64,000 nt of DNA, taken from NCBI RefSeq assembly GCF_011064595.1, contig NZ_JAALJI010000002.1, forward strand, positions 310,001 to 374,000, written 5' to 3'. This document shows positions 8,846 through 29,886 of the stretch, one piece after another (position 1 is the first letter of the stretch; each line of letters begins with the position of its first letter). The notes below the pieces were generated by a model that did no database searches, had not been told where the DNA came from, and was given only the letters and a program-made list of their open reading frames with translations. The DNA comes from Paludisphaera soli. Its GTDB lineage: Bacteria; Planctomycetota; Planctomycetia; Isosphaerales; Isosphaeraceae. Both the position numbers and the translations under genes were made by a program.

Positions 8846-12475
<3,630 letters not shown>

Positions 12476-14116: not shown

Positions 14117-14241
14117 TCGGTTTTTCCGTTTCGCGATAGTCTTCACCTGATATCGTGGACCCGGGACCGAGAGATCGCCGTGTGCTCTCCTCTCCCGGAC
14201 ACGGTCCTGGACCCCGCACGGCGGCCTACGATAGGAATAGG

Positions 14242-14610
14242 ATGGATCTGGAAATGAGCGAGCCCGAGAACCCCACGCCGCAGCAGCAGGTGACCACCGA
14301 GGTCGTCGTCGACGATTCCGCGACGGTGCCGTCCTACTCGAACTTCTGCCGCGTGACGGCGACGCCCGAGGAGGTCATCCTCGACTTCGGCCTGAACCCT
14401 CAGCCGTTCGCCCAGGGCCGGCAGGACGTCAAGGCCATCCAGCGGCTCGTCATGAACTTCTACACCGCCAAGCGGCTGCTGACCGCGCTGGGGATGACGA
14501 TCCAGCGCCATGAGGGGACTTTCGGCTCGATCGAGCTCGACGTCCGCCGTCGCGCCCAGGTGCCGCAGCAGGCCCAGACGAGCCCCGGCCCGAAGGGCGT
14601 GGTCGAGTAA
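14242..14610 (+). CDS. DUF3467 family protein
   Basis: The 122-aa protein matches the DUF3467 family, small proteins of unknown role common in planctomycetes and actinobacteria. The core runs from about residue 30 (YSNFCRVTATPEEVILDFGL) to the helix IQRLVMNFYTAKRLLTALGMTIQRHEG and a short tail. Two starts are possible, ATG at 14242 and ATG at 14254. The first has AGGAA 4 bp upstream and is taken here. It follows waaA by 125 bp. The 5' part of the intergenic stretch is AT-richer than average (ATCGGTTTTTCCGTTTCGCG), so an own promoter is possible. A strong hairpin follows the stop. Confidence 0.8.
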   Translation: MDLEMSEPENPTPQQQVTTEVVVDDSATVPSYSNFCRVTATPEEVILDFGLNPQPFAQGRQDVKAIQRLVMNFYTAKRLLTALGMTIQRHEGTFGSIELDVRRRAQVPQQAQTSPGPKGVVE

Positions 14611-14962: not shown

Positions 14963-17900
14963 ATGTCTCAGCCATCCCGACCGCGGGCGCAAGGCCCAGC
15001 GCAGCGTCGTAACCGCAACCTCAAGCTCGAAGGCCTGACCGCGCTCGAGCGGCGTGACCTGCTGGCCCCCGTCGTGCCGGTGTATCCGCTCCAGGCCGAG
15101 TTCACGGCGGCGGACACGCCGACGAACGCGTTCCTGGGGACCGTGGTCGTCAGCTCGAACACCGATGCCGACACGCTCACCAGCGCCGCGCCGATCACCT
15201 CGGTGGCCCAGCTGACGCCCCTCTCGTCGTTCGGCGGCGACATGGTGCGGATCCAGGCCGGCCCGGGCGGCATCTTCGGCAACGGCCTCTATGCGATCTC
15301 TCGCGGGGCCGGCGACAACGAAGGCGCCGTGGACCGTCCGGGGGTGATCTACCGGATCGACTCGGCGACCGGCAAGGCCAGCGTGTTCTTCGACCTGAAC
15401 ACGGTCATGAGCCAGATCGACCCCAACGCGCTGAACACCGACGGCGTGAACCCGGCGGCGAACTCGCTGGGCGGGGCGTCCGGCGGGGCGGTCGACGCCA
15501 CCGGGTTCACCAACTGGTACGACATCGCGTTCGACCCCGAGGGCTACATCGACGGCAAGCCGTCGATGCTGGTCACCACCTCGGACCGGTCCGACCCGGC
15601 GAAGAACGCGATCTACCGGATCGGGGCCGACGGTTCGTTCCTGGGCGCCTTCGTGACCCTGACGGACGGCCAGGCGGCGACCAAGTTCAACATCAACCCG
15701 ACGGCCGTGGTCGTGCCGGGGCCGGAGTTCCAGAGCTTCCTCCGCGGGGTGATCGCCGGCAGCGGCGTCAGCTCGACCGGCGGCACGCTGGCCGCCCTGT
15801 TCTTCGACGCCAACCAGTATTCGCCGGGCCAGGTGATCTCGAACGCCTCGACGCTGCCGAAGGGGGTGTCGCAGACCGGGATGAGCGCCGGGCCGATCAC
15901 GGGCATGACCCAGGCGAACATCGACTACTTCTCGCCGGTGTACTCGGCCTTCACCGACTTCGGGACCCCCGCGGGCGGCGGGATCCCCGCGACGCCCGGC
16001 TTCAGCGGCGTGCAGGGCTCCAACGGCGACCTGCTGATCGGCGACCCGTCGCTCGACTCGGTCACCGACCCGCTGGTCGTCGACGCCAACCCGTTCCTGA
16101 CCACGCCGTTCCGGCGGTTCCAGGACATCGCGTTCGACCAGTACAGCTACTTCGCCCAGTCGGTGGGCCTGGAGGCGGCCGACTCGACCACCACGACGGG
16201 GGGCGTCGTGACCGGGGTGACGGTCACCGGCCAGCCGACCTACGCCGGCAACCTGTTCGTCAGCGACCTGGCCTCGGGCCTGTACGTCTCGGTGACCTCG
16301 GTGGAGGACGCGGCCCTCGGCATCCCCGCGGGCGTCGTCGTCAACGTCCCGGTGCAGGGGAGCGGGATCGTCGGCCTCGAGCTGGCCGACCCCAGCCAGC
16401 CCTACAACGCCGCGACCAACCCGCTGGTGCCGATCGTCACCAACGGCAACACCACCGGCGGCAGCAACATCGGCGGCCGGGTCGTCCGGATCACGCCGGT
16501 CGGGATCACGACGGTGTTCGCCCAGGGCTTCAACACCTCGGGCGCCCAGGACTCGACCAGCTTCATGGATTCGAGCCTGAGCATCACCTTCTCGGCCGAC
16601 GGTACGGTCTTCTACGCGTCGGACGGCGACGGCATCTGGCAGTTCAAGACGACCGCCAGCCTCGCCGGCTCGACCTCGGGCACGCTGATCGGCCTGAACG
16701 ACCTCCGCACCCTGGCCGTGCCCTATGACGGCCGCGGCAGCGCGGTGGCCGTCATCGACACCGGCGTCGACTCGCTCTCCTCGCCGTTCCGCGGCCGCGT
16801 CGGGGCCGGCAAGAACCTCTACACCGGGGGCAACGGCAACATCGACGTCGCGTCGCTCGACACCGGGACCACGGGGACCGGCGGCGGCGGCGGCACCGGC
16901 GGAGGCACAGGCGGAGGCACCGGCGGCGGCACCACCGGCGGCGGCACCGTGCTGGCCAACAGCTTCGACGGCCACGGCACGCCCGTGGCGGGCGTCGTCG
17001 CCCAGTTCGTCCCCCAGGCCACCATCAACCCGGTCGCGATCTTCTCGCCCTACTTCGGCTCGCTGACGATCACCGTCGGCGGCACGACCGGCGGCGGGAC
17101 GGGCGGCGGCACCGGCGGCGGGACGGGCGGCGGCAGCCTGACCGCGACCGCCAACGCCCTGACGAGCACGAACGGCGTCTACAACGGCCTCGCCTACGTC
17201 GCCTCGCAGCCCTACGTCAACGACCCGGTGCGGCCGGGCCAGGTCTCCCGGGTGATCGCCTCGACCCTGGCCTTCGGCACCACCCAGACGTGGACGAGCG
17301 AGGCCCAGGCCTTCCGCAACTATCCCCAGATCGTCATCGCCCTGAAGCTCCAGCTCCGAAAGTTCCGCCAGCTGGGTATCGCGCCGATCGCGGCCGCCGG
17401 CCAGTTCGGCTCGCCGCTGGGCCTCGGCTCGGGCGGGACCACCGGCGGCGGCACGGGCGGCGGCGGCGGCGGCGCCGGCGGCGGCACCGGCGCCACCGCC
17501 ACCGGCCTGTTCCGCAGCAACGCCGACGACCCGTCGCTGGGCGACACCAACGGCATGTCGCTGCCGGCCATCCTGAACGAGACGATCTCGGTGACGGGCG
17601 TCTATCCGTTCCCCTACTACACGAGCGTGTCCACCACGCCGGACAACCCGGCGGTGGGGGCGATCCCCAACCCGGCCGGCCCGGTTCTGGTCTTCGGCAA
17701 CGCCCTCACGATCGGCGGGACGGCCACCGGCGGGACCGGCGGCGGGACGGGCGGCGGCACCGGCGGCGGCACCGAGGCCAACGTCGCGGCCAACGTCGAG
17801 ACCTTTGCGGCCTCCGACTTCGCCATCTGGAACGACCGGGTCCCGGGGGCCGTGAACCGCACGATCGCCACCGACTTCGCGGCCCCGGCCCTCGACGTCC

Positions 17901-19537
17901 CCACCTTCCGCCGGCGGTTCTCGGCACTCCAGGCCGCGGACGCGACCGACGAGACCTCGGGCGACGCCGCCAACCGGCTGACCTTCACCCAGGTCGGGAC
18001 CTCGATGTCGACCGGCATCCTGACCGGCGCCTACTCCATGGTGGCCTCGGCCCTGGACTACTGGACCAACCTCAACAAGGACCAGGGGGTCACCTCGGAC
18101 GCGTACCTGACGACCCCGGTCGGCGTCCGCTCGCTGTACTTCAACCCCCACGGGATCGGCGACCTCTCGGCCTTCAACACGCCGGACGGGATCAACGGCA
18201 TCCTCGCCTGGACGGCCGTCCCCGCCTTCGACCTGAACGACGGCGGCAGCCTCTCGACCCCGGCCCTGGTCAGCTCGACCGACAAGCAGCACGGCTTCGT
18301 CGGGGCGAACGAGCCGCCGGCCTACGCCCGCGTCTCGATCAGCAATGCGATCGCCGCGATCGAGGGGACCATCGCCCTCAACTACCTGATCAGCCAGAAC
18401 GTCCTGCCGATCATCGACGCCAACAACGACGGCGTCCTGACCGCCCAGGAGGTCCAGGACTTCACCGACACGGCCGCGACCAAGGGCATGCCCGAGGCCG
18501 GCGCCATGGCCCGACTCCTCGGCGGCACGGCCACCTACGCCCAGACCCAGGCCGGCGTCAACAACGTCGTCTTCAACGAGAACCCGGACTCCCCCGGGGC
18601 CCTGCAACGCCGCTTCAACTTCTTCGACTTCGTCGCGAACGGCCAGCTCAAGGGCGGGGTCAGCCTGGAGAGCCTCAAGATGCTCTCCCAGACCCTGCTC
18701 CCCAAGCCGGACTCGTACGTGGTCGTCGACCGCCAGCGTGCGTCGGTCAACGGCTTCCTCGTCGACCCGACCGCCCAGCGGAACACCACGGCCCTGCAGC
18801 ACAAGCTGCCGCAGTACATGTGGGTCCCGCAGGCCACGGTCGCCCGGTACCGCGGCATGTCCCCGGCCCGGTTCAAGATCAACCGCAACGAGGCGCCCGG
18901 CAGCTCGTTCCCGGTCTACACGCTGTTCCAGAACTCGCCCGCCCCGGTCCAGCGGGAATCCCGCACCGTCTCCACGAGCAAGGTCGTGAACGGCGAGAAG
19001 ATCAACGTCGTCCAGGTGGTCCAGGGCCCGGCGATCTCGAACAGGCCCGCCGCGACCACGCCGACGACCACCACGCCGGCCCCGACGACCCCCACGCCGA
19101 CGACCACCACGCCGGCCCCGACGACCACCACGCCGACGACCACCACGCCGGCCCCGACGACCACCACGCCGACGACCGTCACCCCGCCGAGCCAGGTGCT
19201 GGCGGCCCTGGTCGACCTGGCCAACCAGAACCAGCAGGCGAGCAAGTCCGGGACCACGCTTCCGGCGGCCACGCCCCTGGTGACCGAGCAGGCGACGACG
19301 CCCGCGACCACGACGCCCGCTTCGACGGCCGCCGTCTCCACCGAGGTCCCGACGACGCCGACGGCCGAGGCCGACGCCGCCGCCAAGACCGCCGCGGCCG
19401 AGCTGGCCGTCCAGCAGCAGGCCGCCGCCCAGGCCCAGGCCGCCAAGGCCGCCGCCCAGAAGGCCGCCCGGGCCTCCGCCAACAACAAGACCACCCTCCA
19501 GAAGATCTGGGACGACATCAAGAACCCGTTCACCTGA
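14963..19537 (+). CDS. LEPR-XLL-type secreted subtilisin-like (S8) serine protease
   Basis: This 1,524-aa extracellular protein is probably a serine protease. The N-terminus has the planctomycete export-associated motif LTALERRDLLAP (about residues 26-37) instead of an ordinary signal peptide. Residues about 60-560 form a repetitive beta-rich domain resembling surface propeller proteins. The S8 triad can be read as D599 (VAVIDTGVD), H671 (DGHGTPVAGVV) and S1014 (GTSMSTGILTG). The 343-residue gap between His and Ser is far above the usual 150-200 and includes Gly-Thr-rich blocks. A single EF-hand-like loop is at 1152-1163 (DANNDGVLTAQE). The tail has a Thr/Pro block (about 1364-1408), then Ala/Gln-rich coiled coil. 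AGGAG lies 8 bp before the ATG, and a strong terminator follows. Confidence 0.85.
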   Translation: MSQPSRPRAQGPAQRRNRNLKLEGLTALERRDLLAPVVPVYPLQAEFTAADTPTNAFLGTVVVSSNTDADTLTSAAPITSVAQLTPLSSFGGDMVRIQAGPGGIFGNGLYAISRGAGDNEGAVDRPGVIYRIDSATGKASVFFDLNTVMSQIDPNALNTDGVNPAANSLGGASGGAVDATGFTNWYDIAFDPEGYIDGKPSMLVTTSDRSDPAKNAIYRIGADGSFLGAFVTLTDGQAATKFNINPTAVVVPGPEFQSFLRGVIAGSGVSSTGGTLAALFFDANQYSPGQVISNASTLPKGVSQTGMSAGPITGMTQANIDYFSPVYSAFTDFGTPAGGGIPATPGFSGVQGSNGDLLIGDPSLDSVTDPLVVDANPFLTTPFRRFQDIAFDQYSYFAQSVGLEAADSTTTTGGVVTGVTVTGQPTYAGNLFVSDLASGLYVSVTSVEDAALGIPAGVVVNVPVQGSGIVGLELADPSQPYNAATNPLVPIVTNGNTTGGSNIGGRVVRITPVGITTVFAQGFNTSGAQDSTSFMDSSLSITFSADGTVFYASDGDGIWQFKTTASLAGSTSGTLIGLNDLRTLAVPYDGRGSAVAVIDTGVDSLSSPFRGRVGAGKNLYTGGNGNIDVASLDTGTTGTGGGGGTGGGTGGGTGGGTTGGGTVLANSFDGHGTPVAGVVAQFVPQATINPVAIFSPYFGSLTITVGGTTGGGTGGGTGGGTGGGSLTATANALTSTNGVYNGLAYVASQPYVNDPVRPGQVSRVIASTLAFGTTQTWTSEAQAFRNYPQIVIALKLQLRKFRQLGIAPIAAAGQFGSPLGLGSGGTTGGGTGGGGGGAGGGTGATATGLFRSNADDPSLGDTNGMSLPAILNETISVTGVYPFPYYTSVSTTPDNPAVGAIPNPAGPVLVFGNALTIGGTATGGTGGGTGGGTGGGTEANVAANVETFAASDFAIWNDRVPGAVNRTIATDFAAPALDVPTFRRRFSALQAADATDETSGDAANRLTFTQVGTSMSTGILTGAYSMVASALDYWTNLNKDQGVTSDAYLTTPVGVRSLYFNPHGIGDLSAFNTPDGINGILAWTAVPAFDLNDGGSLSTPALVSSTDKQHGFVGANEPPAYARVSISNAIAAIEGTIALNYLISQNVLPIIDANNDGVLTAQEVQDFTDTAATKGMPEAGAMARLLGGTATYAQTQAGVNNVVFNENPDSPGALQRRFNFFDFVANGQLKGGVSLESLKMLSQTLLPKPDSYVVVDRQRASVNGFLVDPTAQRNTTALQHKLPQYMWVPQATVARYRGMSPARFKINRNEAPGSSFPVYTLFQNSPAPVQRESRTVSTSKVVNGEKINVVQVVQGPAISNRPAATTPTTTTPAPTTPTPTTTTPAPTTTTPTTTTPAPTTTTPTTVTPPSQVLAALVDLANQNQQASKSGTTLPAATPLVTEQATTPATTTPASTAAVSTEVPTTPTAEADAAAKTAAAELAVQQQAAAQAQAAKAAAQKAARASANNKTTLQKIWDDIKNPFT
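16865..16948 (+). repeat. Gly-Thr (GGGT) coding repeat, first of four blocks
   Basis: Imperfect 12-bp units encode Gly-Gly-Gly-Thr between the catalytic Asp and His of the protease. Similar blocks occur at about 17079-17140, 17431-17500 and 17713-17773. They are probably flexible linkers and are prone to slippage. Confidence 0.85.
19053..19185 (+). repeat. Thr/Pro-rich coding repeat
   Basis: Repeated units of about 21-33 bp encode alternating TTTTPAPTT and TTTTPT segments near the C-terminus of the protease. This is typical of an extended, possibly glycosylated wall-spanning linker. Confidence 0.85.
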
Positions 19538-20981: not shown

Positions 20982-21734
20982 TCAGTAGTCGGAATTTCTT
21001 GACACCCAGCCCGATGGCCAGTCGTAGGAACTCGAATCCCAACGCATTCCGAGTGGTTTCAGGAGACGCTGCAACTCGTGGAATGGGGCCTCGGCGCGGC
21101 TCGCGACCCAGAGGCAATCCTCGCCGCGTTCGATCTCGACCCCGATCACGAGATCGCGATGACCGTAGCAGCGGCTCGGGCCGGATGCGGCGTAGGCTGG
21201 CAAGGCGAGCCGCGGATAGTGGGACTCGATCGCGGTGAGGACGGCGTCCGTCCAGGGGCCGTTGGCCCGGCATCGGACGTCGTGGGACCACTTCAGGTCG
21301 CAGAGCAGCCTCTGAAGGGCGAACAGCGAGATCGACGGGCTCTCCTCCAGCCATTCGCCGTGTTCGTCTTCGGACGAGACGAAAACCGGCGGGTCCTCAG
21401 CCTGCCGCCCCTCGACGCCGACGCCCCATCGGACGACGGCCTGGCTCTCCTCATAGAAAACGATCCGCCCGTCCTCGATCCGCAGCCGATCCGGCCTCAC
21501 GAAGACGTCCTGGCGGGACCAGGCGTCCGCCCGCCGTCCGGCGATCGCGTACCATTCGCGCAGGGCGGCCGGCAGGTCGACGCCCAACCGCATCGCGGCG
21601 GCGTCGAGGGTCGCCGCGGGATCGCCCTCGGCGGGCCGCAGCGGGGGATGCCACTGGTCGAAGAACTCGCGAAGCAGGGCCCAGCGCTCGGCTCGGGCCG
21701 GGGGGATCGACAGGAACGGTGAGGGATGCCGCAT
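20982..21734 (-). CDS. SUKH/SMI1-KNR4-like protein
   Basis: The 250-aa protein has an N-terminal half resembling the SUKH (SMI1/KNR4) superfamily. LDAAAMRLGVDLPAALREWYAIAG is the characteristic helix and turn, RIEDGRIVFYEESQAVVRWGV the following strands, and a WLEESPSISLFALQRLL helix closes the domain. SUKH proteins include many polymorphic-toxin immunity proteins. The C-terminal part (about 170-250) is unassigned; RCYGHRDLVIGVEIE is its clearest segment. No toxin gene is visible nearby, so an immunity role is inference only. The gene lies downstream of the HlyD operon on the same strand, with a hairpin terminator between them. Confidence 0.6.
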   Translation of the reverse strand: MRHPSPFLSIPPARAERWALLREFFDQWHPPLRPAEGDPAATLDAAAMRLGVDLPAALREWYAIAGRRADAWSRQDVFVRPDRLRIEDGRIVFYEESQAVVRWGVGVEGRQAEDPPVFVSSEDEHGEWLEESPSISLFALQRLLCDLKWSHDVRCRANGPWTDAVLTAIESHYPRLALPAYAASGPSRCYGHRDLVIGVEIERGEDCLWVASRAEAPFHELQRLLKPLGMRWDSSSYDWPSGWVSRNSDY

Positions 21735-21918: not shown

Positions 21919-24111
21919 TCAGATCGTGAAGTGGAAGGTCTTGGTGATGAGCCGCCAGAGCCACCAGCCGAAAGTGTGGGTGCCGGCGTCGATCTTGGCG
22001 AACCCGCGCTGGCCGGGGTGGTATTCCAGGTTGGGGTTGTCGATGGGGATGACGACCTCGTAGACGGCCGACTGGGGCTTGATCTGGCCGGTCTTGGGGT
22101 CGGTGCTGGCGGCGATCTCGCCGCCGGCGGTGTTGGACAGCTCGACCGGGATCTCCTCGCGGTTGCGCTTGGCGATCTGGGCGACGGCGCCGTTGATGGT
22201 GACCTCGGAGCGGCCGTAGACCTTGACCCAGGCGCGGGGGGCCTTGTCGCGGTCCATCCGGATCAGGTCGATGTCGGACTGGTCGACGATCAGGTGGGCT
22301 TCGAGCTTGTGGGGGTCGGCGACCTCGCAGAAGGGCTTGCCGGGCTTGACCCACTGGCCGAGCGTCTCGGGGTGGGGGACGCCGAGGACCTGGCCGTCGC
22401 GCGGGGCGGTGAGGACGAGCTTGCCGAGCTGCTCATTGATCTTGGCGATCGCCGGCTCCAGCTCCTCGGCCATCTGGACGCACTGGCGGGCCTGGGCGCG
22501 GCCCTCGTTCTCGGAGCTGCGGCCGTAGTGGAGGGCCTTGAACCAGTACGTGTCGTGCTCGGACTGGCGCTGGATGAGTTCCTTCTGCTTCTCGTGGTTG
22601 ACCAGCTTGGCGATGACGTCGCCTTCCTTGACCCACGCGCCGTCGCGGACGTTCAGCTCGACGAGCCGGCCCTCGACCTCGGAGTAGATCTCGGTCGGGT
22701 GCGCGGGGGAGAGGACCAGGGTCCCCTGGATGCGCAGCGGGGTGGGGATCATCAGGACGCAGGCCACGACGGCCACGAAGGCCGCGGCGAAAGCGGCCGC
22801 ACGTGCTTTCTTCACTTTGCGCATCCTCCCGGGCGTGCGTAGGAACTTGCCGATTTGATAGAGGGGCATCCCCAGGAGGGGCACGAGCGAGCCGAGGGCC
22901 AGCATGTAGCTGAGCGCCTGGAGCTTGTACGGCTTGAGGACCTGGGACAGGAAGAACAGGATGCTGAAGGTCACCACCCAGCGGTACAGGTAGCTGGCGA
23001 CCGCGTAGGTGACGAACAGGCTCCGCCGCGACCGCGGCATGTAGCTCTGGACCGGGACCTCCAGGCCGAGCACCTTCTCCTGCAGCAGGTAGGTGAAGAA
23101 CTGGGTGCTCTTGATCCGCAGGTTGGGGATCTCCAGCCAGTCCGACATGACGTAGTAGCCGTCGTACCGCAGCAGCGGGTTGGCGTTGAACAGGATCGTG
23201 TTCACCGAGCAGATGAACATGACCGCCATCGAGAGGCTGTTGAGCAGCCCCTGCTCGGTGTTGAACCAGACGAAGGTCGCCAGGCTGGCGAGGAACAGCT
23301 CGACGTAGATGCCCGCCGCCGAGATCCAGATCCGGTGCCACTTGTTGGGCAAAAGCCAGCTGTCGGTCACGTCGCAGTAGAGGGCCGGCGTGAGGACGAG
23401 GAAAAGCATCCCCATCTCGTGGACCTCGCCGCCGTAGTGCTTGGCGGTGAGGCCATGGCCGAACTCGTGGATGATCTTGACGATCGCCAGGCTGATCCAG
23501 AAGGTGAAGATCGTCCACCAGTTGAAGAAGCTCTGGAACTCGGGGAGCTTGGCGTAGAACTGGCTCCACTGGCTGATCACCAGGGTCACGGCGGCGAGCA
23601 TCAGGCAGACGCTGCCGGCGACGAACCAGCGGGTGAAGATCCAGCGGAAGTACGGGTACATCCAGGTCAGCAGCCGCTCGGGGTCGATGACCGGGATCTT
23701 GATGAACAGGATGTTGGCGAGGAAGCCCCAGACCTTCTTCCACTTGTTCTTGCGGCGGCGGCGGATGAGCGCGGCGGCCTGCTCCGGGCTGTCGATCTGG
23801 ACGACGCCGGCCTCGTGGAGCTGGGCCACGAACCGGGTGAGGTCCTCGATCGAGATCGTCTGCGGGCGGTACTTGCGCTCGAAGGCCCGCTTGACGTCCT
23901 GGAGGTTGTTCTTGCCGTCGAACTGCTGGAGCAGGAAGTACTCCTCGATCTTGAACCGGAAGTACTTCAGCGCCAGCGGGTCCTTCACGACGTAGTGGGT
24001 CATCCCCTCGTAGAACTGGGGCTGGACCACCAGGTCGGGGCGGAGCTTGACCCGCAGGTGCTCGGCGGCCTGTCCGAAGGGGGCCGGGGTTGTGGAAGGG
24101 GCTGCGCTCAT
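21919..24111 (-). CDS. PqqD-like/M50 metallopeptidase/HlyD fusion membrane protein
   Basis: The 730-aa inner-membrane protein has three parts. Residues about 20-115 look like a PqqD-type winged-helix (YFLLQQFDGKNNLQDVKRAF to LHEAGVVQ). Residues about 150-450 form a multi-pass M50 (site-2 protease) domain with H215-E216-F-G-H219 and the second motif N311-P-L-L-R-Y-D317-G, so zinc ligands appear intact. Residues about 455-730 form a HlyD/biotinyl-lipoyl adaptor arm (EGRLVELNVRDGAWVKEGDVI, then LTAPRDGQVLG). M50 enzymes cleave substrates in or near the membrane; PqqD-like domains often bind peptide leaders. It is the last gene of a three-gene operon. A role in peptide maturation and export is plausible but not shown. 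Confidence 0.85.
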   Translation of the reverse strand: MSAAPSTTPAPFGQAAEHLRVKLRPDLVVQPQFYEGMTHYVVKDPLALKYFRFKIEEYFLLQQFDGKNNLQDVKRAFERKYRPQTISIEDLTRFVAQLHEAGVVQIDSPEQAAALIRRRRKNKWKKVWGFLANILFIKIPVIDPERLLTWMYPYFRWIFTRWFVAGSVCLMLAAVTLVISQWSQFYAKLPEFQSFFNWWTIFTFWISLAIVKIIHEFGHGLTAKHYGGEVHEMGMLFLVLTPALYCDVTDSWLLPNKWHRIWISAAGIYVELFLASLATFVWFNTEQGLLNSLSMAVMFICSVNTILFNANPLLRYDGYYVMSDWLEIPNLRIKSTQFFTYLLQEKVLGLEVPVQSYMPRSRRSLFVTYAVASYLYRWVVTFSILFFLSQVLKPYKLQALSYMLALGSLVPLLGMPLYQIGKFLRTPGRMRKVKKARAAAFAAAFVAVVACVLMIPTPLRIQGTLVLSPAHPTEIYSEVEGRLVELNVRDGAWVKEGDVIAKLVNHEKQKELIQRQSEHDTYWFKALHYGRSSENEGRAQARQCVQMAEELEPAIAKINEQLGKLVLTAPRDGQVLGVPHPETLGQWVKPGKPFCEVADPHKLEAHLIVDQSDIDLIRMDRDKAPRAWVKVYGRSEVTINGAVAQIAKRNREEIPVELSNTAGGEIAASTDPKTGQIKPQSAVYEVVIPIDNPNLEYHPGQRGFAKIDAGTHTFGWWLWRLITKTFHFTI

Positions 24112-24213
24112 CGATCGGCGATCCTCGGCGGGGCCGTGGGGGGCGTCATCGTCGTGCTGGGGCGGGACGCCCCCCCGGCCGGCGCGGCCGGTGGGGCAGG
24201 TCCCGGGAGAGGA

Positions 24214-25146
24214 TCAGCGGGCCGGCGTCGTGCGGGGCCGGGCGGCGACCTCGTCGTCGTTGAGGTAGATGGTCATGGCCGCCTTCAGGCCGGGCCGCAG
24301 CTCCAGCTCGGGGTTCTCGAACTCGGCGCGGATGCGGACGGCGCTCTCGGCGATGGCCTGGACCTGGGGGTCGACGAACTTGATGACGCCGCGGAAGGTC
24401 TTGCGCTCGATCGGCTGGTCGCCTCGGCTCCCCTCCAGGCGGGGCTGGATCTCGACGACCTGGCCGACCTTGACCCGGAAGGCGTAGTCGAGCGGGATGA
24501 AGGCGGTGGCCGAGAGCCGGGCCAGGTTGCCGATCTGGACGACGGCCTCGTTGGCCCGGACGCTCTCGCCCGGCTCCTTGTAGCGGCGGATGACGATGCC
24601 GGAGAACGGGGCGTAGATCGTGTGCTCGCGGAGCATCTGGTCGGCCAGGGCCAGCTCGGCCATGTTGATGGCGATCTGCTCCTCGGCCTCCTTGACCTGG
24701 GCGACGGCGACCTTGTACTCGCCCTCGGACTTGGTCATCTCCTCCTGGGAGACGAGGTCGGCCTTGCGGGCGACCAGGCGGCGGTTGCGGGCGACGGCCG
24801 CCTCGGCGACCTCGCTGGCGGCCCGAGCCTTCTCGACCGATCCCTTGCTGTCGGCGGTCAGCTTGCTCTTGGCGACCGTCAGCTCGGCGATCTCCTTGTG
24901 GAGCGAGCCGATCTCGGCGCCCTCCTGGGCGGCGTCGCCCAGCCTCAGCTCCATCTTCTCGATGACGCCCTCGCGGAGGGCGGCGACGTCCGACTTCTCG
25001 ATCCAGTCGATCGTGGCGAGCTGGTCGTGCGAGTCGAGGACCAGGGTGGCGGTCGGGGCGGCGGGGCCGTTCTGGGCGGACGCGGCCACGGAGAGGGTCG
25101 CCAGGGCTCCCAGGGCGACGGTCGCGATGGTCTTCAAGGGGGACAT
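24214..25146 (-). CDS. HlyD-family periplasmic adaptor protein
   Basis: The 310-aa exported protein (signal peptide about 1-24, ending ASAQNGPAAP) has a membrane-fusion-protein layout. A lipoyl half comes first (REGVIEKMELRLGDAAQEGAEIG), then a coiled-coil hairpin (about 65-160, Ala/Glu/Lys-rich), then the second lipoyl half (IYAPFSGIVIRRYKEPGESV) and a beta-barrel domain. Such proteins bridge an inner-membrane pump and an outer-membrane channel. The frame extends to a GTG at 25164, but the ATG at 25146 with GGAGG upstream gives the signal peptide. It is the middle gene, 102 bp before the M50 gene and 100 bp after the GAF-HlyD gene. No pump gene is in the cluster. Confidence 0.88.
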   Translation of the reverse strand: MSPLKTIATVALGALATLSVAASAQNGPAAPTATLVLDSHDQLATIDWIEKSDVAALREGVIEKMELRLGDAAQEGAEIGSLHKEIAELTVAKSKLTADSKGSVEKARAASEVAEAAVARNRRLVARKADLVSQEEMTKSEGEYKVAVAQVKEAEEQIAINMAELALADQMLREHTIYAPFSGIVIRRYKEPGESVRANEAVVQIGNLARLSATAFIPLDYAFRVKVGQVVEIQPRLEGSRGDQPIERKTFRGVIKFVDPQVQAIAESAVRIRAEFENPELELRPGLKAAMTIYLNDDEVAARPRTTPAR

Positions 25147-25246
25147 ATCTCGGAGATCCTCCACTCGGGATGGTCGATGGCGGTGTGGGGGGGGCGGCCC
25201 GGCCGACGCGCCGGGCCCGCGGGTTGGAATCGTCGTCGGCCGGGGC

Positions 25247-27343
25247 TCACTGCAGGAACGGCCAGCGGAACAGGACCGACTCGTGCCAGACCTGGACGAC
25301 CTTGCGGAACATGACGTAGGCCAGGCGGGCGTCGCCGCAGTCGATCCGGGCGCGGACCTCGGCGCCGGGGCGGAACTCCTGGTTGCGCTTCAGGAACTCG
25401 GCCCGCACGGCGTCGCTGAAGCCGACGGTCACCTTGACGGTGTGCCGCTGCTCGGCGCTCTCGGTCTTGGTCTCGGCCCGCGAGGCGATCCGCCGGACGT
25501 AGCCCTGGTAGCGGTGATCGGGGTCGGTCGCCACCACGAAGTAGGCGGAGACGGCGGAGCCGGCGGGCTTGGTCCCGGCGGCGATCTCGGCTTCGAGCTT
25601 GGACTGGGCGGCGAGGACCGGGCCCATGTCGTCGTCGGGCACCTCGACCTCCAGGACCCACTCGCCGTCGGTCTCGGCGAGCTGGAGCAGCTCGGTGCCG
25701 ATGTCGACCGGGCGGCCCAGGAGGTTCTTCTTGACCTCCCAGGTGGTGATGATGCCGTCGTGCGGGGCGCGGACCGACATGTCCTCGATCTGCTCGCGGG
25801 TGATCTCGATCTGCTCCTTGGTGCTCCGGGCGGTGATCTGGGCCTCGGTGAGCTGGGCCTCCAGCTGGAGGGCCTCCTGCTTGGACTGCTCGCGCTGGCT
25901 GGCCACCTGCTCCTGCTGGCGGAGGATCAGGCCCTGGGAGTTGGCCTTGTTGAACTCGGCGGTGAGCTTCTTCAGCTCCTTCTCCAGCTCGCGGCTGTCC
26001 AGGCGGGCGATCACGTCCCCCTTCTTGACGCGATCGCCGTGCTCGACGGGGACCTCGACGATGATGCCCGGGTTGGGGGCGTAGACGGTCTGCCGCTGCT
26101 CGGGGAGCAGCGAGCCGCGGCCCTCGATGCGCAGGTTCCAGGGGACGAACGTGAGCGCCCCGATCAGGGCGACGACCAGGCCCAGCACCGCCAGGATCTT
26201 GGCGAGCATCCGGCCCCGGAAGAACCGCCAGGGGGAGCCCATCGCCTTGAGGACCGGCCGCAGGAAGATCCGGTGGTGCTCCTGGGCGTTCCAGAGGGCC
26301 GTGGAGGCGTGGCGGGCGACCACCTCGGTCCGGGCGTGCATGTCGGTCGGGGCGACCTCGTCGCCGATCTGCTCGGAGACCAGACAGCCGTAGGCGACCT
26401 TGTCCTTGCGCTCGGCCCCCTCCTCCTTCTCGGGCTTGTAGAGGAGGACGACGGCGACGGCCTTCGAGCCCGACTCGTCGACGTACAGCTCCAGCGCGTC
26501 GCGGATGTCGGGGGCGAAGCCTTCGGTGTGGCCGGTGTAGACCAGGTCCTCGCCCGAGCGGAGGACGGCCTTGCAGAGCTTGGTCAGCTCGCGGACCTGG
26601 TTCGAGCGCTGCTCGACGACCTCCTGGCCGCTGATCGCCTCGACGAGCGTCCGGCCCGAGAGCTTCAGCGCCACGCTCAGGCGGTCGCAGCCGACGAGCC
26701 GCTTGCCGTCGTTGACGACGGCGTAGGCGGTCTCCTTGAAGTCGAGCGTGTGGTGGATCTGGTGGGTGAACGTCTCCAGCTGGTTCCACATCCGCTGCTG
26801 CGAGACCATCTGCCGCATCTGGCGGTTCTTCAGATAGTTCGCCGCCAGGTCGGTGAGGTCGCCGACGAACCGGAGCGTGCTCTTCTGCTGGGCGGCCCGA
26901 CGGTTCGGGTCCATCAGGATCTCGAGCAGGCCGACCACCTGCTTGTCGACGATCAGGGGGGCGAGGATGATCGTCAGGTGGGTCGGGTTGAACGCCTGGG
27001 GCATCCCCTCGATCACCGCGCCGGGGGGGATGACCTGGGGCTGGGTCGCCTGGACCATGCAGCCCAGCAGGGCGTCGTGGGGGGCGGTCTTGATGCGGCC
27101 GTCCATCAGGCCGGTCTGGGCGAAGTCGAGCTGGTACTGGAGCCGGAGCCCGCCCCGGCCGTCGAGCAGCCAGAACGCGCCGCCGGCCGCGGCGGTGGCC
27201 GCCACGGCCCGGTTGAGGAACTCCCCGTAGAACTCGCCGGGCTGGACGTCCGACTCGGCCAGATCGGCGATCTCGGCCACCAGCTTGCGGATCTGATTCT
27301 TCGTCTGCTCGAGCAGACCGGCGTCGATGGTTTCTTCCGGCAT
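25247..27343 (-). CDS. GAF-GAF-TM-HlyD fusion protein
   Basis: The 698-aa protein joins a cytoplasmic sensor-like half to a periplasmic adaptor half. Residues about 35-170 and 190-355 look like two GAF domains, with VGLLEILMD in the first and the strand AVAVVLLYKP in the second. Residues about 379-400 form a single membrane helix (ILAVLGLVVALIGALTFV). Residues about 417-698 are HlyD-like: lipoyl half (IIVEVPVEHGDRVKKGDVIARL), long coiled coil (450-540), second half (VRAPHDGIITTWEVKK) and a beta-barrel. A GAF sensor on an adaptor is unusual and suggests that a cytoplasmic signal gates the complex. It is the first gene of the operon and is divergent from the porin gene. The frame stays open to 27883, but the ATG at 27343 begins the conserved part. 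Confidence 0.85.
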   Translation of the reverse strand: MPEETIDAGLLEQTKNQIRKLVAEIADLAESDVQPGEFYGEFLNRAVAATAAAGGAFWLLDGRGGLRLQYQLDFAQTGLMDGRIKTAPHDALLGCMVQATQPQVIPPGAVIEGMPQAFNPTHLTIILAPLIVDKQVVGLLEILMDPNRRAAQQKSTLRFVGDLTDLAANYLKNRQMRQMVSQQRMWNQLETFTHQIHHTLDFKETAYAVVNDGKRLVGCDRLSVALKLSGRTLVEAISGQEVVEQRSNQVRELTKLCKAVLRSGEDLVYTGHTEGFAPDIRDALELYVDESGSKAVAVVLLYKPEKEEGAERKDKVAYGCLVSEQIGDEVAPTDMHARTEVVARHASTALWNAQEHHRIFLRPVLKAMGSPWRFFRGRMLAKILAVLGLVVALIGALTFVPWNLRIEGRGSLLPEQRQTVYAPNPGIIVEVPVEHGDRVKKGDVIARLDSRELEKELKKLTAEFNKANSQGLILRQQEQVASQREQSKQEALQLEAQLTEAQITARSTKEQIEITREQIEDMSVRAPHDGIITTWEVKKNLLGRPVDIGTELLQLAETDGEWVLEVEVPDDDMGPVLAAQSKLEAEIAAGTKPAGSAVSAYFVVATDPDHRYQGYVRRIASRAETKTESAEQRHTVKVTVGFSDAVRAEFLKRNQEFRPGAEVRARIDCGDARLAYVMFRKVVQVWHESVLFRWPFLQ

Positions 27344-27731
27344 GGTGGTACCAGTTCGTTGAGGTCCGAGGCCCATTCGCACCCCGGCGGGATCTTTGTC
27401 CACTCGGCGACGGCCACGCCCCGCACCTTCTCGCCCGAACCGGATGCGCGACGCAGCTTGACGCAGACAACGGGACGGGATCGACGCCCACCTTCCTGAC
27501 GCCTCCGTCGTTTTTCCCGATCGCGGGCCGGCGGCCGACCTGCCCTGCGATCCAAACCGAGCGGACGTCCGGGGATCGAGCGCGTCGGCGGGGCCGTCCC
27601 AGGCGGCCGACTTTGACGATCGGGGGATCAAGCCGGCCCGATCCGAACGCCGATAAGCCTGCTGCGGCCTCGCAGGCCGACGGCCGCGATCGGCTTCGAG
27701 ATCGACGTAAACCGGGCGAAAGGGGAAACCG
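27344..27731. other. divergent intergenic region between GAF-HlyD operon and porin gene
   Basis: This region of almost 390 bp should carry promoters for both directions. I can see no clear -35/-10 pair. An AAAGGGG ribosome-site-like run at 27719-27725 stands 6 bp before ACG at 27732. The Arg-rich short frames here are not supported as genes. Confidence 0.45.
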
Positions 27732-27767
27732 ACGAAAAGCGCGGGGGTCCTGGCAATCCTGGCGTTC

Positions 27768-29363
27768 GTGGCGATCTCCACGCCGGTCGGGGCCGACGAG
27801 CCCCCGGCCGCCGCCCCCCCCCGCGCCGACGCCGGCTCGGTCGACTCCCGCCTTCGCGAGATCGAGGCGATGAACCGGGCCATCCTGGAGCGCCTCGAGC
27901 GCTCCGAGCGCGAGCGTCGCGACGCCGACGAGCGCTATCGCTCGCTCGAGGCCAGGTACGACGACCTGCGGCGACGCCTGGAGGGCGAGGCCGAGGCATC
28001 GACGGATGACGAGGGCCCCGCGACCGGGCTCGATCCCCTGCCCCGCGCCGAGGAGTTCCGGGACTCGCCCTCGGACAAAGACGAGTCGACCGGCGACCAG
28101 GCCGACGAGGTCGAGCGGAGCGAGGAGGTCTGGGAGATGCCGCTGCGCGGGATCTTCGGCGACGAGGGCTTCGGCCTGCGTTCCTTCGACGACGAATACC
28201 AATTGCGCTTCCGGATCCTCGACCAGACCGATCTCAAGATCTTCTCGCCGGGCGATCAGCGGCCGGCGTCGAGCGGCCTGTACATCCCCCGCGTCCGCGT
28301 CTATTTCGAGGGGCGGCTCACCCGCCTGTTCGACTACGAGGTCTCGATCCAACGCAGCGTGGAAGGGGTGTGGGACCTGCTGGACGGGAACGTCGACGTC
28401 AACTTCAGCCGGGGCCTCCGGCTGAAGTTCGGGCGGACGCTGGTGCCGTACAGCTACGACTGGTACGACCACCTGGAGCAGTACTTCATCACCCCGGAGC
28501 GGTCGCTCTTCCCGCTCAACTTCGGGCTGTCGCGGTCGGCGGGGCTGATGGCCCACGGCCTCCTCTTCGACGATCGCATGCAGTACGCCGTCGGCGGGTT
28601 CGACGGCCACCTGACCGGACTGGCCGACGAGAACACGACCCGCGACGTCGTCTCCTACTTCAACTTCAAGCCGTTCCTGGCCTCCGAGCGATTCCCGATG
28701 CTCCGGGACTTCAATCTGGGGTTCTCGGGCTACCTCGGCCAGCAGGTCGTCCCCCAGCGGCCGCTGCCGCTCCGGACGTCGCTGCAATCCTCGGAGAACG
28801 ACGAGGCCGCCCGCCGCGCCACGTCGCTGTTCCTCGACTTCGAGGAGGACGCCTTCATCAGCGGCCCCCACAGCGCGATGGCCGCGCACCTGGCCTGGTA
28901 CGCCGGGGGGATGTCGTTCGAGGCCGAGTGGCAGAGCAGCCGCGACCACTACACGCGCAGCGGCATCCCGTTCCGGCTGTTCTCGGTGCCGGCTACCGGC
29001 AGCCACTTCACGCTCGCCTACTTCCTGACCGGCGAGAAGGTCCGGGATCGCAGCCGCGTCGACCCGCTCCGCCCGTTCGACCCCACGCGGAATTCCTGGG
29101 GCCCGGGGGCGGTCGAGCTGTTCGCCCGGTTCAGCGAGCTTCAGCTCAGCGACGAGGTCTTCCGCGCCGGGCTGGCCGACCGGGCGAAGTGGACCAACGG
29201 CATGGCCATGACCGACATCGGCTTCAACTGGTATCTGACGAGCTACCTCAAGCTCTACTTCGACTGGCAGCGGTCCTATTACGACACGCCCGTCCAGCTC
29301 AACGAAGGGCTGAGGAGCCTCACCAACGACCTCTTCTGGATCCGCGGCCAGCTCTATTATTAA
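27768..29363 (+). CDS. OprO/OprP-type (phosphate-selective) outer-membrane porin
   Basis: The protein has a coiled-coil N-terminus (SRLREIEAMNRAILERLERSER onward), an acidic spacer, and a C-terminal beta-barrel of the porin O/P group. The barrel includes RVRVYFEGRLTRLFDYEVSIQ, LKFGRTLVPYSYDW, repeated amphipathic strands and the closing strand LFWIRGQLYY with a terminal aromatic. It would form a trimeric anion channel in the outer membrane. The coordinates use the first standard start (GTG 27768), but that cuts a signal peptide. In-frame codons from ACG at 27732 encode a Lys-Ser start and the hydrophobic run AGVLAILAFVAIS, with a ribosome site 6 bp upstream. The true start is therefore probably 27732 (542 codons). 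Divergent to the HlyD operon, it may supply that system's outer-membrane part. Confidence 0.85.
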   Translation: MAISTPVGADEPPAAAPPRADAGSVDSRLREIEAMNRAILERLERSERERRDADERYRSLEARYDDLRRRLEGEAEASTDDEGPATGLDPLPRAEEFRDSPSDKDESTGDQADEVERSEEVWEMPLRGIFGDEGFGLRSFDDEYQLRFRILDQTDLKIFSPGDQRPASSGLYIPRVRVYFEGRLTRLFDYEVSIQRSVEGVWDLLDGNVDVNFSRGLRLKFGRTLVPYSYDWYDHLEQYFITPERSLFPLNFGLSRSAGLMAHGLLFDDRMQYAVGGFDGHLTGLADENTTRDVVSYFNFKPFLASERFPMLRDFNLGFSGYLGQQVVPQRPLPLRTSLQSSENDEAARRATSLFLDFEEDAFISGPHSAMAAHLAWYAGGMSFEAEWQSSRDHYTRSGIPFRLFSVPATGSHFTLAYFLTGEKVRDRSRVDPLRPFDPTRNSWGPGAVELFARFSELQLSDEVFRAGLADRAKWTNGMAMTDIGFNWYLTSYLKLYFDWQRSYYDTPVQLNEGLRSLTNDLFWIRGQLYY

Positions 29364-29394
29364 GCCTACTCGGCGGAGCGACGTCGGAGGCCGC

Positions 29395-29422
29395 TTGTGC
29401 TTTCCGGTCTGAAGTCGATAAT
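29395..29422 (+). promoter_or_regulatory. candidate promoter of the Fur-family gene
   Basis: TTGTGC (29395-29400), 16 bp and GATAAT (29417-29422) lie in the 130-bp gap after the porin gene. The -10 is close to consensus and the -35 is weak. Confidence 0.4.
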
Positions 29423-29493
29423 TCATGCACCAGAGGAGAAGCGACGGCCGCCCCGAGCCGCCGTCGCGCGTGCATGAAGGGGGTCGACGCATT

Positions 29494-29886
29494 TTGAATC
29501 GAAACACCGCGCAGCGCGAGGCGATCCGGCGATCGCTCCAGGAGGCCGGCCGCCCCCTGAGCGCCGTCGAGGTCCTGGAGCTGGCCCAGCGCGACGTGCC
29601 GGGGCTGGGCGTGGCGACGGTCTACCGGACGATCAAGACCCTGATCGAGGACGGGACCCTGATCGCCGTGCCGCTGCCGGGCTCGTCCGACCGCTACGAG
29701 CACCGGGACGCCGCCTCGCTCCACCACCACCATTTCATCTGCAACGACTGCGGCCGGGCGTTCGACGTCCCCGGCTGCTCGATGGCGTTCCAGGGGATGG
29801 CGCCGCCGGGGTTCGTCGTCAGCGGCCACGACGTGGTGCTCTACGGCCGCTGCGATCGCTGCAACCAAGGTTCGAACGGGTCTTGA
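29494..29886 (+). CDS. Fur-family transcriptional repressor
   Basis: The 130-aa protein has the Fur layout. A winged helix (about 1-75) includes GRPLSAVEVLELAQ and the recognition helix region LGVATVYRTIKTLIEDG. The metal-binding half has HHHHFICNDC and the terminal CDRC giving a C-x2-C pair twice. Fur, PerR and Zur cannot be told apart from sequence alone. The TTG at 29494 with GAAGGGG about 11 bp upstream is chosen because it begins at the usual Fur N-terminus; ATG 29425 and GTG 29470 are alternatives, and the former lies at the predicted transcription start. It is followed by the epimerase gene after 32 bp. A Fur-box-like operator stands before feoA at 43070. Confidence 0.85.
   Translation: MNRNTAQREAIRRSLQEAGRPLSAVEVLELAQRDVPGLGVATVYRTIKTLIEDGTLIAVPLPGSSDRYEHRDAASLHHHHFICNDCGRAFDVPGCSMAFQGMAPPGFVVSGHDVVLYGRCDRCNQGSNGS

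Follow-up and report, generated by a model that had tools for sequence, protein, structure and literature searches.

A conserved planctomycete GAF–HlyD, HlyD and M50–HlyD gene trio and its apparent link to very large LEPR-tagged secreted proteins

A locus encoding GAF–HlyD, HlyD and M50–HlyD proteins together with a 'secondary SecA_DEAD' ATPase was reported by Kamneva, Poudel and Ward in 2015 (PMC4452313) in taxa that include the Planctomycetes; the SecA_DEAD partner was described there as lacking SecA_SW, partners were sometimes unlinked, OEP proteins occurred in some loci and SecA was suggested as the ATPase, whereas the role of the module was left open. According to the same paper, the laboratory strain Methylobacterium extorquens AM1 has the four-gene locus. 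Here we analysed a 64,000-nucleotide stretch of the Paludisphaera soli genome (contig NZ_JAALJI010000002.1, positions 310,001 to 374,000; the window) in which the same three proteins are encoded by adjacent genes. A preliminary description of this DNA had put the genes forward as an undescribed export or maturation system in which a PqqD-like part recognizes a leader that the M50 protease cuts; the system proved to be the one reported in 2015, whereas export or maturation as an idea seems right, judged from the sequences. Those parts of the 2015 report available to us give no cargo and no leader, and we add links to DUF3467 and to LEPR-XLL (NF012209), an N-terminal tag that marks some very large predicted bacterial proteins. 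What appears new is the likely cargo of the known module, these very large LEPR-tagged secreted proteins. In the open-access literature searched, we found no published export route for LEPR-XLL giant proteins and no paper linking PqqD with the domain terms of the module; joining module and tag gives the export of such proteins a concrete explanation that can be tested.

The trio genes lie head to tail on the minus strand with intergenic gaps of approximately 80–100 bases, and profile searches confirmed a HlyD-type module in each product. The first gene (25247–27343) encodes a 698-residue GAF–GAF–transmembrane–HlyD adaptor with one Pfam GAF match (E 1.9e-7), a second, sub-threshold GAF-like region and matches to HlyD families; its AlphaFold model (mean predicted local distance difference test (pLDDT) score 76.7) has two N-terminal alpha/beta domains followed by the adaptor, and a single long helix at residues 377–397 would be the transmembrane segment. 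An open reading frame (ORF) spanning 25247–27883 is overlong, and the alignment of 26 orthologues places the likely start at the ATG at 27343. The second gene (24214–25146) encodes a free HlyD or RND-type periplasmic adaptor (TIGR01730, 109.8 bits, above the cut-off) and starts at an ATG at 25146 inside a GTG ORF beginning at 25164. The third gene (21919–24111) encodes a 730-residue fusion of a PqqD-like region, an intramembrane M50 protease and a HlyD adaptor (P0001; Pfam Peptidase_M50, E 3e-9, and HlyD_3, E 2e-14). Its protease motifs are intact, as had been stated (HExxH at 215–219, NPLLRYDG at 311–318), and H215, E216, H219, N311, P312 and D317 are unchanged in all 71 aligned sequences. 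The N-terminal PqqD-like region is sub-threshold in the window protein (TIGR03859, E 0.04; 13.9 bits against a cut-off of 46), and Pfam PqqD (PF05402) matches 19 of 24 diverse relatives at E ≤ 0.1 (best 1.5e-6). In the structure model (mean pLDDT 66), the secondary structure of this region would allow strands and then a winged helix, and the adaptor half resembles MexA, AcrA and MacA; a structural search with the model returned adaptors only, the PqqD-like part giving no resolved match.

Conservation of the trio was assessed by ORF clustering of the window with 30 related Isosphaeraceae loci, in which the M50 protein is 63–89% identical. The order GAF–HlyD, HlyD, M50–HlyD was kept in every related locus with enough contig, and in farther planctomycetes (M50 protein 28–47% identical) the trio was kept in most loci, sometimes rearranged. 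With these three adjacent genes present as in the 2015 locus, we consider it nearly certain that the trio belongs to that module. The window genome likewise encodes a secondary SecA_DEAD protein without SecA_SW, yet on another contig and not in the locus, which is compatible with membership because unlinked cases are reported in PMC4452313. The module resembles type I secretion (HlyB–HlyD–TolC) in its HlyD-type adaptors (three here), in the TolC genes of several proteobacterial operons and in its very large candidate cargo, but differs from it in having no ABC transporter, with a SecA-type ATPase in the place of HlyB, in a signal that is N-terminal instead of C-terminal, and in the fused M50 protease. 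The absence of ABC, RND and MFS pumps from the window cluster, noted previously, held, and none was found in the conserved part of the planctomycete and proteobacterial neighbourhoods read, where ABC genes appeared only well downstream, in one record among the operons; the operons of relatives do, however, carry SecA and TolC genes, and the idea of a cluster without a pump thereby fails in part by the refuting condition of the preliminary description, a conserved neighbourhood with a known pump.

The candidate cargo came from the genes beside the module. Relatives on proteobacterial plasmids display a complete operon, and the leader of the large neighbour ends in LEPR-x-LL/LF or a close form in 10 of 10 proteobacterial operons with a readable cargo-gene start (Methylosinus, Pseudosulfitobacter, Thalassospira, Mesorhizobium, Ensifer, Niveispirillum, Azospirillum thermophilum, the E. 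coli and Kosakonia plasmids, and Alisedimentitalea), a count drawn from records hand-picked among the best matches of one search and not at random, in which the Alisedimentitalea motif lies upstream of the annotated start and from which Azospirillum TSA2s, Cupriavidus, Sinorhizobium and Rhizobium johnstonii were left out, counting neither way, because the start was not readable or not retrieved. The motif reads LEPR-x-LL or LEPR-x-(L/M)F, with IEPR in Thalassospira and LESR in E. coli. Pseudosulfitobacter encodes a 12,918-residue LEPR-XLL protein followed by HlyD, M50–HlyD and a SecA-type gene, and the Thalassospira operon comprises a LEPR-XLL protein, DUF3467, an adaptor, M50–HlyD, a second adaptor and TolC; in A. 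thermophilum the motif is at the start of a short ORF, with cadherin-like and VCBS ORFs after it, which would fit a large gene that has been split, and in Tistrella a LEPR protein is encoded approximately 4 kb from the module. Among planctomycetes, one operon (L099) contains the gene for a LEPR protein that bears chitinase and cellulose-binding domains, and a 2,299-residue LEPR protein is encoded alongside the module at another locus (L095). The L099, Methylosinus, Pseudosulfitobacter and Thalassospira proteins score above the NF012209 cut-off, and matches of the leaders to Planc_extracel (PF07595) were sub-threshold only. The linked precursor that the preliminary description had suggested looking for is, most likely, a very large LEPR-type secreted protein and not a small peptide. 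The LEPR leader is usually basic: from the start to the motif, the net charge is positive in all leaders scanned except that of Kosakonia. In a simple hydropathy scan, no leader was as hydrophobic as the core of a typical Sec signal, which served as the yardstick.

Several of these operons showed features of their own. A compact operon on E. coli plasmids (L108, NZ_CP081687, 53805–69240) encodes a large Ig-like protein with a LESRQLF leader, TolC, an adaptor, HlyD and M50–HlyD; matches to its M50–HlyD gene, each at ≥99% identity, were present in 24 of 5,426 complete genomes. Immediately 3′ of the M50–HlyD gene on the Kosakonia plasmid come three genes in a row with tail fibre annotations (L119:14119–16226). 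At L106:1–1225 (NZ_CP123586), an in-frame LEPRLLLAAD leader lies upstream of the annotated start of a large calcium-binding protein, and the gene was therefore probably called too short.

The association extended to co-occurrence across 393 planctomycete genomes. Using an M50–HlyD match limit of E ≤ 1e-35, chosen after weaker matches proved to be adaptor-only, LEPR-XLL matches (E ≤ 0.01) were present in 79 of 167 genomes with M50–HlyD and in 3 of 226 without (79/88/3/223, p 1e-31), and a within-family shuffle gave 0 of 20,000. Five LEPR limits from 0.1 to 1e-4 all agreed in direction; at E ≤ 0.1 approximately 0.1 chance match is expected per genome, and the tables at 0.01 and 0.001 are therefore preferred. 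The shuffle allows for relatedness through 14 families, entered by hand, and lessens but does not remove the non-independence of genomes within a phylum; the cross-tables were transcribed by hand and the tag was scored with a 24-residue model. At least two M50–HlyD matches per genome were common; unless the extra matches are to adaptors only, such genomes may have paralogous modules for different cargo.

A second SecA also went with the module: 147 of 167 genomes with M50–HlyD, but 4 of the 226 that lack it, had at least two SecA_DEAD matches (147/20/4/222, p 2e-79), and shuffling within families gave 0 of 20,000. A count of two may also come from a gene split by a contig end. The window genome has two: a canonical SecA in the window itself (8846–12475, plus strand) and a second on contig 121 (G000:C121:195165–196337) with SecA_DEAD, PP_bind and P-loop domains and without SecA_SW (wing/scaffold) or SEC-C in Pfam. 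The canonical protein carries SecA_SW and SEC-C, was ruled out as the SecA of the module and lies outside it; two separate matches cover its SecA_SW domain, which fits the planctomycete rearrangement reported in PMC4452313. A SecA-like gene adjoins the trio in five planctomycete loci (L083, L088, L096, L098 and L099), and operonic SecA2 genes were recognized by Pfam in Methylosinus and Pseudosulfitobacter, by annotation in Alisedimentitalea, by position and annotation in Mesorhizobium and by a GEGKT motif in Ensifer and Sinorhizobium. The Pseudosulfitobacter gene, SecA_DEAD in Pfam, is annotated 'prepilin peptidase'; secondary SecA genes at L101:17177–19093, L103:18032–20056 and L109:14141–16102 are publicly labelled 'prepilin peptidase' or 'DEAD/DEAH box helicase', and those of L101 and L103 show SecA_DEAD, PP_bind and P-loop domains in Pfam. 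The energy source missing from the window cluster is most likely this secondary SecA_DEAD ATPase, unlinked here and operonic elsewhere.

Taken together, usually basic leaders without a Sec-like hydrophobic core in a simple scan, a PqqD-like domain, an M50 site, a SecA partner, adaptors and TolC suggest a mechanism, which we infer throughout from gene content, order and conservation and from the association with LEPR proteins and a second SecA, all of them observed. The LEPR leader would be bound in the cytoplasm by the M50 protein through its PqqD-like winged-helix part, as the fold family of this part suggests; the SecA2-like ATPase would push the unfolded chain, a driving role already proposed for SecA in outline by Kamneva et al. 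(PMC4452313); the HlyD-type adaptors, judging from their families and the TolC genes of several operons, would form a periplasmic conduit to a TolC-type channel; the intact, invariant M50 site would cut the leader during or after transfer; and the GAF pair might conceivably gate assembly or activity from the cytoplasm. The pairing of module and tag suggests a SecA-type motor that replaces the ABC transporter alongside HlyD-type adaptors. We regard it as probable that LEPR proteins are the cargo, and as somewhat less firm, though still favoured, that the trio supplies the membrane and adaptor components of a type-I-like secretion module in which they act together with the secondary SecA_DEAD and a TolC-type channel on large LEPR-x-LL proteins. 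The chances that SecA2 is the motor, and separately that M50 cleaves the leader, we put at about even. The broadest proposal is evenly balanced as a whole: a distinct secretion system, made of a SecA-like motor, an intramembrane protease that recognizes the leader and is fused to an adaptor, two more HlyD-type adaptors (one bearing a cytoplasmic GAF sensor) and TolC, that is dedicated to LEPR-x-LL giants and spread over Planctomycetota and Proteobacteria, some E. coli plasmids included.

Several points weigh against secretion of LEPR proteins by a SecA-driven module. The link between module and cargo is an association drawn from genome comparison; approximately half of the planctomycete genomes with M50–HlyD have no LEPR match at E ≤ 0.01, which may reflect the low power of the 24-residue model, true absence being possible; planctomycete LEPR genes mostly lie away from the module; and the candidate cargo in the window carries a diverged LEPR motif. 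In the window protein, the PqqD match falls below threshold and the structure model of this part is of low-to-middling confidence. The LEPR leader is no transmembrane segment, the usual target of M50 proteases. Only one SecA_DEAD was found in 20 of the 167 M50–HlyD genomes, and no SecA2 gene was seen near the E. coli, Kosakonia, Niveispirillum and Azospirillum operons; for these two reasons SecA2 is perhaps not always needed. The enterobacterial and some alphaproteobacterial forms, with no SecA2 gene nearby, may not use SecA2. Eight same-class genomes (G018, G164, G168, G184, G199, G214, G262 and G282) combine M50–HlyD with a single SecA_DEAD match; their motor may be a different protein or a diverged SecA.

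Maturation in place of transport is the alternative that survives best, although we consider it unlikely: LEPR proteins would cross the inner membrane through canonical Sec, and the module would only recognize, cut and hand over the leader, with HlyD as a periplasmic scaffold. Few features are as well conserved as the M50 active site, several operons have no SecA2 gene, and the nearest NCBIfam model of the window protein is that of a leader protease for ribosomally synthesized and post-translationally modified peptides (RiPPs), NF041824 (daptide_HExxH), whose strong match (E 1.2e-53) spans the PqqD-like and M50 regions and which was matched by 24 of 24 members. The window protein scores 182.7 bits, below the equivalog cut-off of 300, and differs from the daptide and YydH/LiaK epipeptide proteases, the M50 enzymes of RiPPs, in its C-terminal HlyD fusion, its partner genes and its cargo. 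Against maturation, the leaders lack a hydrophobic core of the kind that canonical Sec uses, operonic TolC and the adaptors argue for a conduit, and the co-occurrence with a second SecA is strong.

Regulated efflux of small molecules or metals, in which the adaptors would take GAF input and work with an unlinked pump while the LEPR association reflected lifestyle only, is very improbable. It would fit adaptor domains that are most similar to those of MacA/MexA/AcrA-type tripartite pumps, and planctomycete LEPR genes that are usually unlinked, but against it stand the neighbourhoods read, none of which has an RND, ABC or MFS pump in its conserved part, the large LEPR genes that proteobacterial operons contain, and the within-family co-occurrence. 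The earlier idea that PqqD–M50 matures a small linked precursor, which the adaptors then export in RiPP-like fashion, draws on the PqqD-like domain and the similarity to daptide and YydH/LiaK metalloproteases and is very improbable, given that gaps of approximately 100 bases leave the trio no room for a precursor gene, that the linked genes are very large, that the sole recurrent small linked gene, DUF3467, also occurs in genomes without the module, and that no conserved small precursor gene was seen in the loci read, with ORFs under 70–80 residues outside the screen.

In the window, the candidate local substrate of the secretion module is a subtilase-like large secreted protein of approximately 1,524 residues (14963–19537, plus strand), encoded 2.4 kb from the M50 gene, with a basic, non-hydrophobic leader and the LEPR-like motif LTALERRDLLAP; its start reads ...LEGLTALERRDLLAP.... 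The LE-x-R motif is kept at the same place in several orthologues (LEERQLLAP, LESRQLLAP, LEDRQVLTP and LEERQVLAP), and the family was found in 8 of the 31 loci, mostly downstream of the M50 gene. The subtilase reading is based on DTG, HGTPV and GTSM motifs; because the protein falls below the NF012209 model and matches no Pfam family, the protease part included, it is a candidate only. Two further ORFs in the window genome score above the LEPR cut-off, the clearer of which reads ...NLETLEPRMLLSADVGS.... The subtilase gene is preceded by a small gene (ORF 14155–14610, plus strand) with a DUF3467 domain (14254–14535; PF11950, E 4.6e-21), the sole copy found in this genome and an accessory linked to the module, which it also adjoins in other planctomycetes, Methylosinus, Thalassospira and Mesorhizobium. 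As a specific marker DUF3467 was rejected, as it adjoins the module in many genomes but also occurs without it.

The flanks of the trio differ between related loci. The porin that the preliminary description had placed beside the operon is present as a divergent Porin_O_P homologue (27768–29363, plus strand; PF07396, E 1.2e-11), but its family occurs in just 2 of the 30 related loci, and one of these two has it on the opposite side of the trio; the porin is therefore outside the conserved unit, was ruled out as a partner and is incidental context. Many OEP proteins are encoded elsewhere in the window genome, none of them shown to be the partner of the module. Between the M50 and subtilase genes lies a 250-residue ORF (20982–21734) with no family match and no relative in the other related loci. 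A 1,457-residue ORF (25134–29507) and similar long overlapping ORFs were taken as reading-frame artefacts of high G+C.

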